Of a DNA stretch of 42,411 nt, positions 14,394-42,411 are shown in pieces. The DNA is from Bacteroides sp. Marseille-P3684 (GTDB lineage Bacteria; Bacteroidota; Bacteroidia; Bacteroidales; Bacteroidaceae), in NCBI RefSeq assembly GCF_900291465.1, contig NZ_LT985808.1:1347402-1389812 (forward strand), in the 5' to 3' direction. The stretch's first letter is position 1, and each line of letters starts with the position of its first letter. The translations under genes and the position numbers were made by a program. The notes under the pieces are model-generated. The model had not been told where the DNA came from, did no database searches, and was given only the letters and a program-made list of their open reading frames with translations.

Positions 14394-15412
14394 AAGTCAC
14401 CGTCTTCCCCTACCTGCAACCCCGTCCGGGCACACGCCCCAACCCCTACATCCACGACATGGTGCAGGCACTCTCCGCGCTGCCCGGCGTGGAAGTCGTC
14501 AATCCGCCCCACCGCAATCCGCTCCTCTCGCTCCTGAAGCCGGGACGGCAGGGCGACGTCGTCATCCTCAACTGGTTCGAGAGCATCCCCGACTTCCGTC
14601 ACGGATACATCCAGACGTTCATTGCCGTGCTGTGGTTCGTGTGGCTGAAGCTGCGGGGCAGGAAGGTGGTGTGGATGCTGCACAACAAGCATCCCCATCA
14701 CCCGCGCCGCCGTCGGCTGAAGGAACTGCTCACCCGACTGGCAGCACACGGGGCGGACCTCATCATCACCCATGCCACCGACGGCGTGGAGCTGGTCCGC
14801 CAACGCTTCCCCCGTCAGGCGGCAAAGGCGCACTTCCTCCATCACCCGACGAAGGACCGTCTGGGTGTCCCTGCCGACGTCCCGCCTGCCTGCGACTACC
14901 TCGTGTGGGGGCACATCACGGCGTACAAGGGCGTGCTCGAACTCCTGGAATACCTCGCCGCCCGTCCGCAGACCTTCCGTGTGTGCATCGTGGGTGGCTG
15001 TTCGGACGAGTCGCTCCGACGGCGGATTGAGGCGGTCCGCCTGCCGAACGTCGACTGCCGCTTCCACGCCCCCTCGTTCGAGGAGCTGCGGACGTACCTA
15101 GACCGGAGCCGCTTCGTCCTGGTGCCTTACCACGCCGCGTCGGTGCTCAGTTCGGGCATCCTCATGGATTCGCTGGCGTTCGGAGCGAAGGTCGTAGGGC
15201 CCGACACCGGCTCGTTCAAGGACTATGCACGCGAGCCGCGCCTGAAGGTCTATACCTTCCGCTCGTTCGACGACCTTGCCCCTCTGCTGGCGGCACATGG
15301 CGACGAGCCTGCCTCGATGGAGGCTTACCGCGACTTCCTGACGGAGAACGACTGGGCGCATTTCGTCCGTCGGCTCTGCCGCCTGCTGGAGGGCGGAAGG
15401 GACTCCTGCTGA
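14390..15412 (+). CDS. GT4-like glycosyltransferase (GT-B fold)
   Basis: A 340-residue glycosyltransferase. The N-terminal Rossmann half starts MKVTVFPYLQPRPGTRPNPYIHDMVQAL and contains VVWMLHNKHPH. The C-terminal nucleotide-sugar half contains VWGHITAYKGVLELLEYLA, FRVCIVGGCSDESLRRRI and the retaining GT-B segment VPYHAASVLSSGILMDSLAFGAKVVGPDTGSFKDY, whose SSG-x(n)-FG-x-VV pattern equals the EX7E-region loop with the first glutamate replaced. It is translationally coupled to the fucosyltransferase-like gene and is the last gene of the plus-strand block. No clear terminator follows; a promoter-like box starts 50 bp downstream. Confidence 0.78.
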   Translation: MKVTVFPYLQPRPGTRPNPYIHDMVQALSALPGVEVVNPPHRNPLLSLLKPGRQGDVVILNWFESIPDFRHGYIQTFIAVLWFVWLKLRGRKVVWMLHNKHPHHPRRRRLKELLTRLAAHGADLIITHATDGVELVRQRFPRQAAKAHFLHHPTKDRLGVPADVPPACDYLVWGHITAYKGVLELLEYLAARPQTFRVCIVGGCSDESLRRRIEAVRLPNVDCRFHAPSFEELRTYLDRSRFVLVPYHAASVLSSGILMDSLAFGAKVVGPDTGSFKDYAREPRLKVYTFRSFDDLAPLLAAHGDEPASMEAYRDFLTENDWAHFVRRLCRLLEGGRDSC

Positions 15413-15462
15413 CGCTGACGTTCTGACACGGAAATCCCCGTTTGGCTGTCTCTTTTTCCCGA

Positions 15463-15492
15463 TTGGGCGTTTTCAGCTGACGCGTACTTTGG
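15463..15492 (+). promoter_or_regulatory. Promoter-like box of repeat element copy 1
   Basis: TTG at 15463-15465, a 19-bp spacer, then TACTTTGG at 15485-15492 (one base off TAnnTTTG). The stretch cagctgacgcgtacttt (15474-15490) is 16/17 identical to 36116-36132 at copy 2, which has the same 19-bp spacing and a perfect -7 box. It points into the gene-free element. Confidence 0.5.
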
Positions 15493-15628
15493 TGATTTTC
15501 TCCCTTCTGGAGCGAAGTTGAATACACATTTTAAGATAATGCCGTCCGGACGAGGCTGTATTTTTATTTTATTCACATAAAAACGACCGTTTGCTTCCGT
15601 TTCCATCGCGGTGTCTACCCCTTTTCAC

Positions 15629-15694
15629 CGTCGTACGGACACGTCCGCACCACCGTACCGACCCATCCGCACCACCGTGCGGACACGTCCGTAC
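15629..15694 (+). repeat. 22-nt palindromic tandem array, 3 units (GC-rich)
   Basis: Units are 15629-15650, 15651-15672 and 15673-15694. Each holds a near-palindrome of form gt-r-cggac-ac-gtccg-y-ac; the centre unit is degenerate. Linkers repeat as cacc. Units 1 and 3 are also near inverted copies of each other (17 of 19 bases over 15632-15650 against 15677-15695), so the whole array can fold back on itself. The 22-nt period equals that of the AT-rich array at 36226-36357. Confidence 0.85.
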
Positions 15695-15883
15695 GAAAAG
15701 AAGGGTCTGTTTTGTCTGCATTCTTTACCTGTTTTCATTTTTAGACGGAAGTGGGCTTGTGTTTCCCAACTTTCGTTTGGATGTCTGTCCGGAGGATTTC
15801 ATACCGTCCGGATGGCGAAGGTGTGCGTGCGTAGAGAGAAAAGAAAGGAAAATGCAGGGTAAGGTGACAACCTGCATTCAGCA

Positions 15884-15954
15884 AATCGCCCGAGAAGGCC
15901 CTTCCCGCTCACCGATTCGTATTTCGGTGCAAGGAAGGCCCTTCTCGGGCGATT
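15884..15954. repeat. Long 3' hairpin of element copy 1
   Basis: aatcgcccgagaagg (15884-15898) pairs perfectly with 15940-15954. After one mismatch, 15900-15905 pairs with 15933-15938, giving a 22-nt stem with 21 pairs. The loop carries an inner stem caccga/tcggtg (15910-15915, 15924-15929). It could double as a terminator-like structure for the convergent PL11 gene, but lacks a T-run on either side. Confidence 0.85.
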
Positions 15955-15982
15955 CATTTGACGTTTTGACAAAATGCCAACT

Positions 15983-36020: not shown

Positions 36021-36103
36021 GCAAGTCCTGACGAAAAGTTCTGGACGAGGTCCTGAAAACAGAATGTAAGCGATTCCTCTGTTTTGCTTGACAGAATTTC
36101 TCA

Positions 36104-36134
36104 TTTGACTGTTTCCAGCTAACGCGTACTTTTG
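36104..36134 (+). promoter_or_regulatory. Promoter-like box of repeat element copy 2
   Basis: TTTG (36104-36107), 19 bp, then TACTTTTG (36127-36134): a full match to the Bacteroides consensus, reading right into gene-free sequence and diverging from mgsA. cagctaacgcgtacttt within it is 16/17 identical to copy 1 at 15474-15490. Confidence 0.65.
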
Positions 36135-36225
36135 AAAAATCGGGCAAGATAGGCTTTTTTAGGAATATTCATGCGATGGCTCGTGCATACTTATTCCAAA
36201 TCCGGGTCAAAAACGAATAATTATA

Positions 36226-36357
36226 CCGCGAAACAATATTGTTTGGGAAGTCAAACACTTGTGTTTGGTACGTCAAACAATATTGTTTGATGAGTGAAAC
36301 AATATTGTTTCATCCGTCGAAGTCAAGATTTCGAACAGTGAAACACTTGTTTTATGG
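36226..36357 (+). repeat. 22-nt palindromic tandem array, 6 units (AT-rich)
   Basis: Six units of exactly 22 nt (36226, 36248, 36270, 36292, 36314, 36336). Each has a 16-nt palindromic core: gaaacaatattgtttg, caaacacttgtgtttg, caaacaatattgtttg, gaaacaatattgtttc, cgaagtcaagatttcg, gaaacacttgttttat. Six-nt linkers all end in gt (ggaagt, gtacgt, atgagt, atccgt, aacagt). As RNA each core folds into a 6-bp stem with a tetraloop. Units 3 and 4 differ by a compensatory C-G to G-C swap, and unit 5 has a different sequence but remains paired; unit 6 is degenerate. Confidence 0.92.
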
Positions 36358-36533
36358 TTTGGGAACAATTATTTAGTGATTTTTGCCTCTGGCTTGTTCC
36401 GGAAGACGTTCGATTGGGAACTATGATATTGACAGGTATGTGTTTCATTCTCCTTTCTTGCTGATGATATTTTCGTCCCAGTTTGTGTATGTATGCAGGC
36501 AATTATTTCCCGGTTCTGACAATGTGTATTTTG

Positions 36534-36608
36534 CGAATCGCCCGAGAAGGCCCGTTTTGCGCACAAACTTGCAGTTGGCTGCGAGGAAGGGCACTCTCAG
36601 GCGATTCG
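36534..36608. repeat. Long 3' hairpin of element copy 2
   Basis: 36534-36553 pairs with 36589-36608 at 17 of 20 positions. The left arm aatcgcccgagaaggccc is identical to copy 1. The loop holds a 7-bp stem (cttgcag/ctgcgag with one G-U) that replaces the unrelated caccga/tcggtg stem in copy 1, so shape is kept while sequence changes. Confidence 0.8.
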
Positions 36609-36649
36609 TTTGACACTTTGACAAAGTGATAGTTGGGGGTGGAATGCAA

Positions 36650-37255
36650 TCACCCCATAAGCAGCAACCAGAGCATCCATTTCCCTCCCAGTTTCTTGCG
36701 GAGCTGCGAGAGGGCATAGGCATAATGGTTGCGGACCGTGTGGGGTGAAATGTCCAGTTGGCTGGCAACTTCCCGGTAGGAGAGTCCCTGGAAGATAATG
36801 AGTCGGAGTACCTGACGGGCACGGTCAGGCAGGGCATCGATGGCACGGTGAAGTCGCCCGAGGATACGCTCGCGGTCGGAATCACTCTCGGCAGTCAGCT
36901 CGTCGATGAGGCTGTCGGTCACGCTCTCCAGGTCGACGAAAAAATAGCGTTGCTCCTCCTCCATGCGTTTCAGAGAAGCCTTTGCCACTGCCCCGAACAG
37001 GTAGGCACGCACCGAACCGGTGAAGAAACGTCCGCGATGATTGCGCCACAGCGAGATGAAGGCCCCTTGCACGAGGTCCTCGATGTCGTCGGGGGACAGC
37101 AGGTAACGGGTGGCATAGAGGCAGAGCGGACGGTAATAGTGACTGAAGGCAAGGCGCAGGCACGTCTCGTCATCCTGTTGCAGCAGGGCGGCAATCTGTC
37201 TGTCCAGGTCAGAGACGGACGGACATCGGGTGGACTTGAGGGTATCGGTTGTCAT
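36650..37255 (-). CDS. ECF RNA polymerase sigma-70 factor (Bacteroidetes type)
   Basis: A 201-residue ECF sigma factor. Region 2: CLRLAFSHYYRPLCLYATRYLLSPDDIEDLVQGAFISLWRN. Region 4 HTH: ALPDRARQVLRLIIFQGLSYREVASQLDISPHTVRNHYAYALSQLRKKLG. The sequence matches the group expanded in Bacteroidetes that commonly controls glycan and TonB loci. There is no FecR-type anti-sigma factor here; its start codon overlaps the stop of a DUF4476 gene (ATGA), so that protein is the only partner encoded in cis. The C-terminus ends in a hydrophobic MLWLLLMG, which is unusual for a soluble sigma factor. Target promoters are unknown; the nearby SusC/SusD locus is a possibility only. Confidence 0.9.
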   Translation of the reverse strand: MTTDTLKSTRCPSVSDLDRQIAALLQQDDETCLRLAFSHYYRPLCLYATRYLLSPDDIEDLVQGAFISLWRNHRGRFFTGSVRAYLFGAVAKASLKRMEEEQRYFFVDLESVTDSLIDELTAESDSDRERILGRLHRAIDALPDRARQVLRLIIFQGLSYREVASQLDISPHTVRNHYAYALSQLRKKLGGKWMLWLLLMG

Positions 37256-40591: not shown

Positions 40592-42411
40592 GTGTTGTCT
40601 AACGGGTGCAAGTCCCGAGTAAGCCCTAATAGCGGGAATTACATAGCCCCAGGCAAGGGTGTTCATCGCGAGGTGAAATCTGAAGGAAGCCGTCGGCAAA
40701 CATCTGGCCTAACGAACAGAAACTTCATACAAGGCATATGACCGTGGGTAAGATTGCTAAACAAATCGAAGCCCTATAGCTATTCGGAACGGTCGGTGTA
40801 GATGAAGTAGGTATAAGATGGAAAGACAACGCCCTTATCCGAGGAGGTCTCACGGACACTTCGAATAGTTTTTTTTTTTTACGAAAGAAGTGGAGTAAAG
40901 CTTGTCGTGAGAAGTCAGCAGACGCCATAGTAGTGCAGCTGTCGATAGAGTTTCATGAAGGGCAGAACCTAGCAATTAAACGATAGTAATTTAAAAATAC
41001 CATATGAAGGACAGAATGCAGAAAACAATATCACGTTTGTATGGCTGCCCTCAAAGGAATAGGTTGGAAGCCGAAAGATATGGGGGAGTGCAGACCTTTA
41101 TGTGAATGTGTGAAGACAACATCGTGGAAGTACCATTCGACAAGGAACACCTTTTCGAGCAAATTCTCAGTCCGTCAAATCTCAACAGAGCCTACAAAAC
41201 AGTGGTGAGAAACAAGGGATGTGGTGGTATCGACAAGATGTCGTGCGAGCAATTGCTCCCATGGCTCCTGACCAATAGGGAAATGCTCCTTAGTTCCTTG
41301 ATGGACGGCTCTTACCGTCCGAACCCGGTAAGAAGGGTAGAAATCCCCAAAGACAATGGCAAGATGCGCCTTTTAGGTATCCCCACCGTGATAGACCGAT
41401 TGGTGCAACAAGCCATAAACCAAGTGTTGACTCCCATCTATGAGAACCAATTCTCCAAGACAAGCTACGGCTTCCGTCCGAGAAGAGGATGCCATGACGC
41501 ACTACGTGAAGCGCAGAGGATAATCAATGAAGGCTACGTATATGTTGTAGACCTTGACCTTGAACTCTTCTTCGACACGGTGTGCCACAGCAAGCTCATA
41601 GAAATCCTCAGCCGTACCATAAAAGACGGCAGAGTGGTCAGTCTTATACATAAGTATCTCCGTAGCGGTGTAATGAATAAAGGCTTGTTTGAAGCGAGCG
41701 AGGAAGGAACTCCCCAAGGAGGTCCGCTAAGTCCCTTGTTGAGCAACATTATGCTCAATGAACTGGACAAAGAGCTGGAACTCAGAGGCCTCCCTTTTGT
41801 GCGCTATGCGGATGACTCGATGATATTCTGCAGGTCCCGAAGGGCAGCAATGCGAGTGAAGGAGAGCATAACCCGATTTATAGAGAACAATCTATATCTC
41901 AAAGTCAACCAGGAGAAGACCGTAGTGTCGTATGTGCGCGGAGTGAAATATCTCGGCTATTCCTTTAATGTAATGAAAGGTAAATGCCAACTTACGGTAC
42001 ACCCGACATCCAAAGCCAAGATGAAGTCAAGACTAAAAGAACTGACAAGTCGCAGCAATGGATGGGGATATTCCAAGAGAAAGCAAAAGCTCAAAGAATA
42101 CATAAGAGGATGGGTCGGCTATTATCATCTTGCCAATATGAAACGTCTTCTACTTACCACTGACGAATGGTTAAGGCGTAGAATACGTATGTGTATATGG
42201 AAAGCATGGAAGAAAGTCAAGACAAAAGTGGCAAACCTCATTAGATGCGGTATCGATAAGTACAAGGCATATGAATGGGGTAATACTCGCAAGGGCTGCT
42301 GGCGCATAGCAGACAGCCACATAATGCACAGGGCAATCACAAATGAGAACTTGCGCAAAGCAGGGTATGCTACTTTAATGGGTGAATATCTCGAATGGTA
42401 CCCAAAATAGG
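40592..42411 (+). mobile_element. Group II intron (3' end missing)
   Basis: A self-splicing retroelement. The 5' end is placed at GTGTTGTC (40592), close to the GUGYG consensus, followed by aacgggtgcaagtcccg (40601-40617), a hairpin typical of intron domain I, and a ~500-nt structured RNA before the intron-encoded reverse transcriptase. Domains V and VI would lie past the ORF and are outside the window. Composition is clearly more A/T-rich than the host. Insertion just downstream of an intrinsic terminator resembles the habit of class C introns, but the hairpin-to-intron gap here (about 20 nt) is longer than I would expect. The exact 5' border is inferred. A run of twelve T at 40869-40880 lies inside the RNA part. 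Confidence 0.85.
41106..42410 (+). CDS. ltrA: Group II intron reverse transcriptase/maturase
   Basis: A 434-residue intron-encoded protein. RT domain: LNRAYKTVVRNKGCGGIDKM, the conserved GKMRLLGIPTVIDRLVQQAINQVL, SYGFRPRRGCHDAL, EEGTPQGGPLSPLLSNIMLNELD and the active-site Y234-A-D-D237. A maturase (X) domain follows (SNGWGYSKRKQKLKEYIRGWVGYYHLANMKRLLLTTDEWLRRRIRMCIWKAWKK), then RIADSHIMHRAITNENLRKAGY. No HNH endonuclease domain follows; it ends at residue 434, so mobility would rely on other priming. The protein binds and splices its own intron RNA and reverse-transcribes it at new sites. The gene is complete (stop 42408-42410). Confidence 0.95.
   Translation: MCEDNIVEVPFDKEHLFEQILSPSNLNRAYKTVVRNKGCGGIDKMSCEQLLPWLLTNREMLLSSLMDGSYRPNPVRRVEIPKDNGKMRLLGIPTVIDRLVQQAINQVLTPIYENQFSKTSYGFRPRRGCHDALREAQRIINEGYVYVVDLDLELFFDTVCHSKLIEILSRTIKDGRVVSLIHKYLRSGVMNKGLFEASEEGTPQGGPLSPLLSNIMLNELDKELELRGLPFVRYADDSMIFCRSRRAAMRVKESITRFIENNLYLKVNQEKTVVSYVRGVKYLGYSFNVMKGKCQLTVHPTSKAKMKSRLKELTSRSNGWGYSKRKQKLKEYIRGWVGYYHLANMKRLLLTTDEWLRRRIRMCIWKAWKKVKTKVANLIRCGIDKYKAYEWGNTRKGCWRIADSHIMHRAITNENLRKAGYATLMGEYLEWYPK

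Follow-up and report, generated by a model that had tools for sequence, protein, structure and literature searches.

Like the element presented in this work, the BrickBuilt MITE of Porphyromonas gingivalis occurs in the Bacteroidales, is intergenic and restricted to one lineage, and is built from a leader, a tandem array, and a tail. According to the available part of its description, BrickBuilt is present in 19 copies of 84-991 nt that contain 1 to 22.8 units of 23 nt and have no fixed length; its repeats are direct, and it has terminal inverted repeats like those of IS5-family elements (PMC4596501). The present element, in contrast, is found at 111 places or more, has a near-fixed length, palindromic units, and locally even spacing, and inverted ends are not established for it. 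The BOX elements of Streptococcus pneumoniae are similar in that many modular copies (70 + 16) with a repeated middle module are found between genes in a lineage-restricted manner. They differ in their length (67-637 bp) and variable module number, and also in being enriched between convergent genes and often clustered with other repeats, as stated in the accessible portion of the source (PMC3049150).

REP/BIME sequences are arrays of extragenic palindromes with more than 100 copies per genome, which is likewise the case here, and a role in supercoiling has been hypothesized for them; REPs are 20-40 bp long, however, and a frame of ~600 bp with a fixed end-to-end distance is not described in the sections available to us (PMC3733652, PMC2817692). 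The FopS sRNAs of Bacteroides are also a multicopy noncoding family of the Bacteroidaceae. Unlike the element presented here, the 14 FopS copies possess a single-stranded 5' seed stretch and a terminator hairpin, have canonical promoters, and are conserved across the Bacteroidaceae, at least in the part of the report at hand (PMC11697453). A length that is kept while the sequence is free, one lattice for three array vocabularies, and local evenness are absent from the available descriptions of BrickBuilt, BOX, and REP/BIME, and a literature search yielded no description of this element. It belongs to a lineage-restricted family of at least 111 places, whose conserved trait is its geometry, namely two boxes, two distances, and a 22-bp array lattice.

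The element in the window

The window (the whole analyzed stretch of 42,411 nucleotides) harbors two copies, copy 1 and copy 2, which have different array classes (GC and AT, respectively) and a common frame. The first-pass annotation had placed copy 2 at 36101-36628. This block is real but represents only the core of an element of ~595 bp, as delimited by nhmmer with a family model from 39 copies (Table 1). Within it, the TTTG at 36104-36107 and, after 19 bases, TACTTTTG are present as claimed and were read directly in the sequence. A 22-bp palindromic array was also correctly recognized (TRF repeat at 36231-36310, period 22), yet instead of the six units proposed there are four clear ones (starts 36231, 36253, 36275, and 36297) and a decayed one near 36341 that keeps to the lattice. 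The 3' hairpin arms are found as an inverted repeat (about 36534-36556 and 36588-36608), and the tail is indeed common to copy 1.

The described absence of a reading frame holds as well, as no ORF of at least 80 aa lies wholly within the block; one minus-strand ORF (36445-36885) reaches into it from the side of the sigma gene. The same is true of the flanking genes: mgsA (methylglyoxal synthase) is divergent on one flank, while the other flank carries an ECF sigma gene on the minus strand (36650-37255), which is oriented tail-to-tail and separated by 21 bp from the point where the 3' domain match stops (36628). Elsewhere in the window, group II intron D1-D4 matches are located on the plus strand at 40662-40963 (Rfam RF02001, RF01998).

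Table 1. Features of the two element copies, in window positions.
Feature	Position	Strand	Remarks
Whole element, copy 2	36047..36641	+	AT class, 485-489-bp group, 5'-3' box distance 488; 508.7 bits
Conserved left motif TTTTGCTTGAC	36082..36092	+	Inside the left end; AT and C class consensus TTTGCTTGACAgAATT
5' box TTTCCAGCTAACGCGTACTTT	36112..36132	+	19/21 match to the family box
-7 motif TACTTTTG	36127-36134	+	Named in the first-pass annotation; overlaps the 5' box; not family-wide as promoter motif
Array, four palindromes every 22 bp (AAACAATATTGTTT, AAACACTTGTGTTT)	36230..36312	.	TRF and dyad lattice
Filler, length conserved, sequence nearly unconserved	36450..36515	.	AT-class pairwise identity 0.28 vs 0.25 shuffled, 21 copies
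3' domain (CAATGTGTATTTTGCGAATCGCCCGAGAA ... GGCGATTCGTTTGACACTTTGACA), basis of model R1	36519..36628	+	98.2 bits, E 6.7e-28
3' box / right end	36600..36623	+	23/24 match
Copy 1, GC class	15401..15982	+	229.3 bits (family model); 3' domain E 1.1e-25; array CGTACGGACACGTCCG at 15632-15691 (TRF)

Family size and sequence classes

A DNA search with copy 2 gave about 40 places in its own genome, copy 2 included. When 40 copies were used to build a sequence-only 3' domain model, it detected at least 111 places at E<=9e-11 in the 3.7-Mb Bacteroidales chromosome, in addition to three weaker ones. This is far beyond chance and bears out that copy 2 is a member of a family. Echoes on the opposite strand were removed by hand, and since 150 of the 1017 candidates were scored, weaker copies may be missing. 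The 114 places can be sorted by their array vocabulary into an AT class (39 copies, AAACAATATTGTTT), a C class (38 copies, CCCGGAACAATA ... AACAATATAGTTT), and a GC class (28 copies, CGTACGGACGCGTCCG), while nine copies are unclassified and were omitted from most class statistics. The elements are mostly intergenic and ~600 bp long.

Some copies deviate from this scheme. In the element at 910057, the 5' end is apparently replaced by a long hairpin and the 5' box is barely recognizable (14/21), and at 965198 the 3' part only is present, adjoining what by eye appears to be the end of a transposase gene. At five loci (L037, L045, L057, L061, and L064), the AT arrays match the family model on the opposite strand with up to 99.7 bits, which looks as if units had been inverted or shuffled within a fixed frame.

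Conserved distances and the array lattice

The distance from the 5' box to the 3' box was obtained for the 105 copies in which both boxes were scored. It amounts to 485-489 bp in 57, 475-480 bp in 36, and 497-499 bp in 6 of them; the remaining distances are 466, 466, 470, 510, 579, and 625 bp. Two narrow length groups, about one helical turn apart, therefore take 93/105 copies, so that the conserved length suggested from the two window copies is confirmed more strongly than two copies could show. Within the C class, 36 of the 38 copies fall in the 485-489-bp group. Counted from 487 bp, 100 of the 105 classified copies are at most 2 bp away from whole turns of 10.5 bp, with the out-of-phase copies being those at 479, 479, 480, 563, and 579 bp. 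The resultant of the distances is 0.834 at a period of 10.5, 0.827 at 10, 0.792 at 11, and 0.773 at 9.5, that is, the helical period is not sharply set by the distances alone. Important to note here is that the 105 distances are not independent events because the copies have common descent and 22-bp units come and go, and both account for part of the length steps.

The filler of ~65 bp upstream of the 3' domain was compared among copies of modal length only. For the C class, the pairwise identity is 0.32 vs 0.26 after shuffling (34 copies), with 14 of 561 pairs above 0.5; for the AT class (Table 1) this applies to 1 of 210 pairs. The C-class arrays, in comparison, are 0.83 identical, and the 3' domains 0.73 (C) and 0.60 (AT). 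Hence, the AT and C class filler is free in sequence and fixed in length, with conserved boxes. The GC-class filler is still 0.59 identical (0.36 shuffled), for which reason this class looks younger, which in turn suggests that copies have spread.

When measured from the 5' box, the dyad centers of the arrays are located at 126/148/170/192 (AT), 147/169/191/213 (C), and 193/215 (GC). Most dyads of three unrelated vocabularies are thus positioned on one 22-bp lattice within about 1 bp; off-lattice peaks occur at 242 in the GC class and early in the C class (95, 103, and 117). The offset between the 5' box and the start of the AT array is 119, 130, 132, or 140 bp in 34/38 copies. Furthermore, AA/TT dinucleotides recur most strongly with a period of 10.75 bp in the AT, C, and GC classes alike (power 10.5, 9.4, and 6.4, respectively), as compared with maxima of 1.7-1.9 in the flanks. 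Outside or behind the array, the period is weak in the AT class (2.9 at 11.0), absent in the C class (2.35 at 13.75), and clear only in the GC class (5.6 at 11.0). Periods close to 11 bp are commonly associated with the pitch of DNA under negative supercoiling, according to the available part of a published account (PMC4132750).

Chromosomal placement and gene context

Along the chromosome, the copies keep apart. The local spacing statistic Lv of the 111 places is 0.394, compared with a null value of 0.99 (sd about 0.10), and was reached in none of 20,000 simulations; five nulls of 5,000 simulations each gave 1.00-1.03, and again none of the 25,000 reached the observed value. Lv becomes 0.420 when the five rRNA-linked copies are excluded. 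No neighbors are found within 5 kb of each other, where 15-20 would be expected, and the smallest distance between two copies is 5.4 kb (the three weak places at 460651, 2075539, and 3464070 were omitted from the spacing tests). This evenness is local only, as the density varies globally (spacing CV 1.11). In the zone from 0.81 to 1.03 Mb, which was picked after viewing the map, 15 copies follow each other at a mean spacing of 14.9 kb (sd 3.6 kb). A decayed C-class copy that is absent from the list of the 3' domain search lies in a sparse zone, at about 2166.5 kb.

The GC skew of the stretches read, together with the strand on which each of six 16S genes lies, places the predicted origin of replication near 0.5-0.8 Mb. 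With increasing distance from this origin the element density drops, with rho between -0.44 and -0.53 depending on which of three assumed origins is used. The dnaA gene of this genome is located at 2.947 Mb (2947344), far from this predicted origin, and lends the placement no support. A strand bias by replichore was not found (34+/28- and 24+/25-). The GC-class copies are concentrated at 0.63-1.03 Mb (20/28), and none lies past 1.5 Mb. At 1.23-1.95 Mb, a zone selected once the order was known, AT and C copies alternate more often than in shuffled orders (20 runs vs 13.9, p 0.012); the 77 AT/C copies as a whole give 46 runs vs 39.5 (p 0.08). Local spread was examined by Mantel tests on modal-length copies, for which six rRNA-linked or near-identical copies were named for exclusion. 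The GC class gave rho -0.239 for the whole element (42/1000 permutations, 26 copies) and -0.162 for the filler (126/1000); the C and AT classes gave no such correlation.

In the window, both copies had been described as facing a minus-strand gene. As a family trait this does not hold: the four flanking-gene orientations are represented by 22/21/19/19 copies, near the background of intergenic gaps, among the 81 of 114 copies that were scorable with a gene finder that called 61% of the examined DNA as genes. The GC class leans to convergent genes (11/26). C-class elements are also found about 560-710 bp upstream of 16S in five of the six rRNA operons (945219, 1677154, 2609427, 3314271, and 3620004). 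Because the upstream regions at the four of these operons that were read are homologous (mostly 86-95% identical over the aligned pieces), this linkage possibly goes back to one event.

Occurrence in related genomes

A BLASTN search with copy 2 gave no match in 60 other genomes. Among 14 congeners, the 3' domain model yielded one strong match, in the genome G003 (E 9e-13), with all others at E>=0.01; under stricter filters, none was found in 199 of 201 family-level genomes, the exceptions being the own genome and G003. Likewise, no match to copy 2 was found in plasmid and phage collections, and none to two short motifs in viral contigs. G003 has intergenic arrays of its own (39 matches). All of the 20 places read there contain GAAAGGA-type units, which are in most cases arranged in tandem at about 22 nt, and none of them matches the family model below E 1. 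The single 3' domain of G003 also has a GAAAGGA-type array upstream. In the own genome, free 22-bp palindromic arrays were detected at 12 merged places outside the elements in 1.6 Mb searched (304788, 393333, 398944, 458460, 481325, 491291, 589417, 589681, 617647, 1037298, 3631726, and 3651451). At 589 kb, AAACACAAGTGTTT units are mixed with a run of TAAGTATAATACTTT units in one period. Judging from these arrays, array formation may be a wider habit within the genus, with the ~600-bp frame as a putative development of this lineage.

The order mgsA-element-sigma factor, which had been put forward for comparison, is not preserved in the two congeners where both genes were found and synteny was judged, as they are 53 kb apart on a single contig in G003 and on separate contigs in G008. 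The stretches read around these genes contain no element according to the family model. A genome scan with the sigma protein gave distant relatives, and its 21 loci were left out.

A putative nucleoprotein site

We tentatively read the element as a site that functions at the DNA level by assembling a nucleoprotein complex with a putative partner and that possibly organizes supercoil domains; this architectural reading is ranked first, ahead of a MITE-like origin, while falling somewhat short of being probable. The element would serve as a docking site, at which protein dimers bound to the dyads would line up two turns apart along the same helical face and the two ends would be brought together by wrapping or looping. 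It is proposed that whole turns matter for this reason, namely that the ends come together. Placed about every 10-40 kb, such sites could then provide the nucleoid with architectural points and might work, for example, as supercoil-domain or gyrase-type sites. High-copy extragenic palindrome arrays, by which BIME/gyrase-type sites may be judged, are found in this family. The copy number, the box distances in whole turns, the length-fixed filler, the array lattice, the AA/TT period, the local evenness, and the drop in density away from the predicted origin are in line with such a site, as are the near-background gene orientations, the almost complete lack of open frames, and the lack of a clear RNA structure. 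On the other hand, the near absence of the family from congeners and from the family-level genomes is odd for a core architectural site, and a single sequence-specific protein would not easily account for palindromes of three unrelated vocabularies. The spread of the GC class, the length steps partly due to descent and unit turnover, the loosely set helical period, the out-of-phase copies and off-lattice peaks, the weak or absent AA/TT period outside the AT and C arrays, the uneven overall spacing, and the position of dnaA also count against it. The keeping of distances fits the organization of the host chromosome and the target immunity of a mobile element alike.

An extended form of the architectural reading, which we consider possible yet rather unlikely, is a chromosome-wide grid in which ~111 helically phased platforms of fixed length would set the topological domains of a Bacteroidales nucleoid. 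The grid would be kept at locally regular intervals and be densest towards the origin, with a region-specific vocabulary (20/28 GC-class copies at 0.63-1.03 Mb). What sets the family apart is that the sequence drifts while the geometry stays and the copies keep apart; the lengths of BrickBuilt and BOX vary by contrast. A host function of the element would open a direct way to study the division of a Bacteroidales chromosome into domains, and a selfish element would clearly exemplify constraints on both the length and the spacing of short elements. In both cases, the family turns a single genome into a testable system.

Possible mobility

The second explanation, for which we see a limited though real chance, is a selfish, nonautonomous MITE-like family (BrickBuilt- or BOX-like) that is moved in trans by a transposase. 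Under this less favored explanation, the even spacing might result from target immunity and the fixed length from the need of the ends to synapse on one helical face. The intergenic positions with orientations near background would suit such an element, and the lineage restriction together with the younger GC class points to spread at some time. The left and the right end of the GC class also have a 15-mer in common that reaches at least 12 inverted matches in 11/28 copies (0/28 after shuffling, 1 in the outside flank), but direct matches are equally good (12/28). For the AT and C ends, the mean matches of 9.6 and 9.7 are about the same as those of shuffled ends (9.3 and 9.1), and terminal inverted repeats are therefore not established.

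Moreover, when offsets around the two ends of 104 copies were scanned, a common TGACA-type motif was the only signal, and no target duplication emerged. For the right-end motif, 109 occurrences were counted (control 0), and among the matches listed, all but a few are at elements and none reveals an autonomous parent. The older classes combine saturated filler with conserved boxes, and neither internal repeat number nor length varies as it does in BrickBuilt-like MITEs, given the two narrow groups described above. The searches of plasmids, phages, and viral contigs also provided no match. Taken together, the absent target duplications, the parent unseen among the matches listed, and the dissimilar filler of the older classes argue against recent mobility.

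Transcription and gene-end functions as unlikely alternatives

The first-pass annotation had taken copy 2 for one of a family of promoter-driven RNAs. A family of structured ncRNA genes driven by the 5' box and terminated at the 3' hairpin is improbable in our estimate. In its favor, copy 2 carries TTTG-N19-TACTTTTG, and TANNTTTG is found in the 5' box of 13/38 AT copies, in addition to 2/36 C, 0/28 GC, and 0/2 unclassified copies (15/104 in all). This exceeds the 0.4% rate of random 18-mers because the motif is part of a conserved box. The pair of TANNTTTG and a TTTG 17-22 bases upstream, however, occurs in 1/104 copies, which must be copy 2 itself as it has the pair. The conserved box expected next to other copies is accordingly kept as a 5' box, but not as a full promoter.

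The folding results are similarly divided. The predicted fold of the 3' domain is very stable in some copies (MFE -63.1 to -18.5 kcal/mol over 40 copies), yet RNAalifold returned 0 consensus pairs for the 3' domain (40 copies) and 5 for the first half (39 copies). When the hairpin was imposed on the alignment, it slightly exceeded shuffled alignments on two of five measures, with 70.8% vs 69.5% paired cells (reached by 3/500 shuffles) and a covariation score of 0.131 vs 0.113 (6/500); double-changed pairs numbered 14 vs 12.0 (108/500). As related sequences exceed shuffles even without structure, the support for the hairpin is at most weak. A search of Rfam gave no family for the window elements, and none was found in the other sources searched. 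In addition, a nearly random filler of fixed length has no obvious reason in an RNA. Together, the promoter, folding, and Rfam results argue against the idea that the conserved role is that of an RNA gene.

BIME/REP-like arrays at gene ends, which would act on termination or mRNA stability and be embedded in a longer inherited frame, are a similarly remote explanation. The free-standing arrays in the own genome and in G003 and the lean of the GC class towards convergent genes would agree with it. The full elements are not limited to gene 3' ends, however, given the even orientation counts, and a fixed-length frame of ~600 bp is not needed for such a role.

The remaining candidates were rejected: protein coding, with a stop-free frame in 1/102 copies and a gene-finder ORF inside the element in 3/81; cis-regulation of mgsA or the sigma gene, whose neighborhood is unconserved in two congeners, with orientations near background; and parS, for which one place with 2 mismatches (463671) is meaningless because the reversed control gave 2 and 2. 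Other intergenic repeats were observed in the flanks of the elements, for example GTAGGGGCGACCGGTC...GGTCGCCCGGTCC inverted repeats and TTGACAATTGTCAATTG runs upstream of 16S genes.
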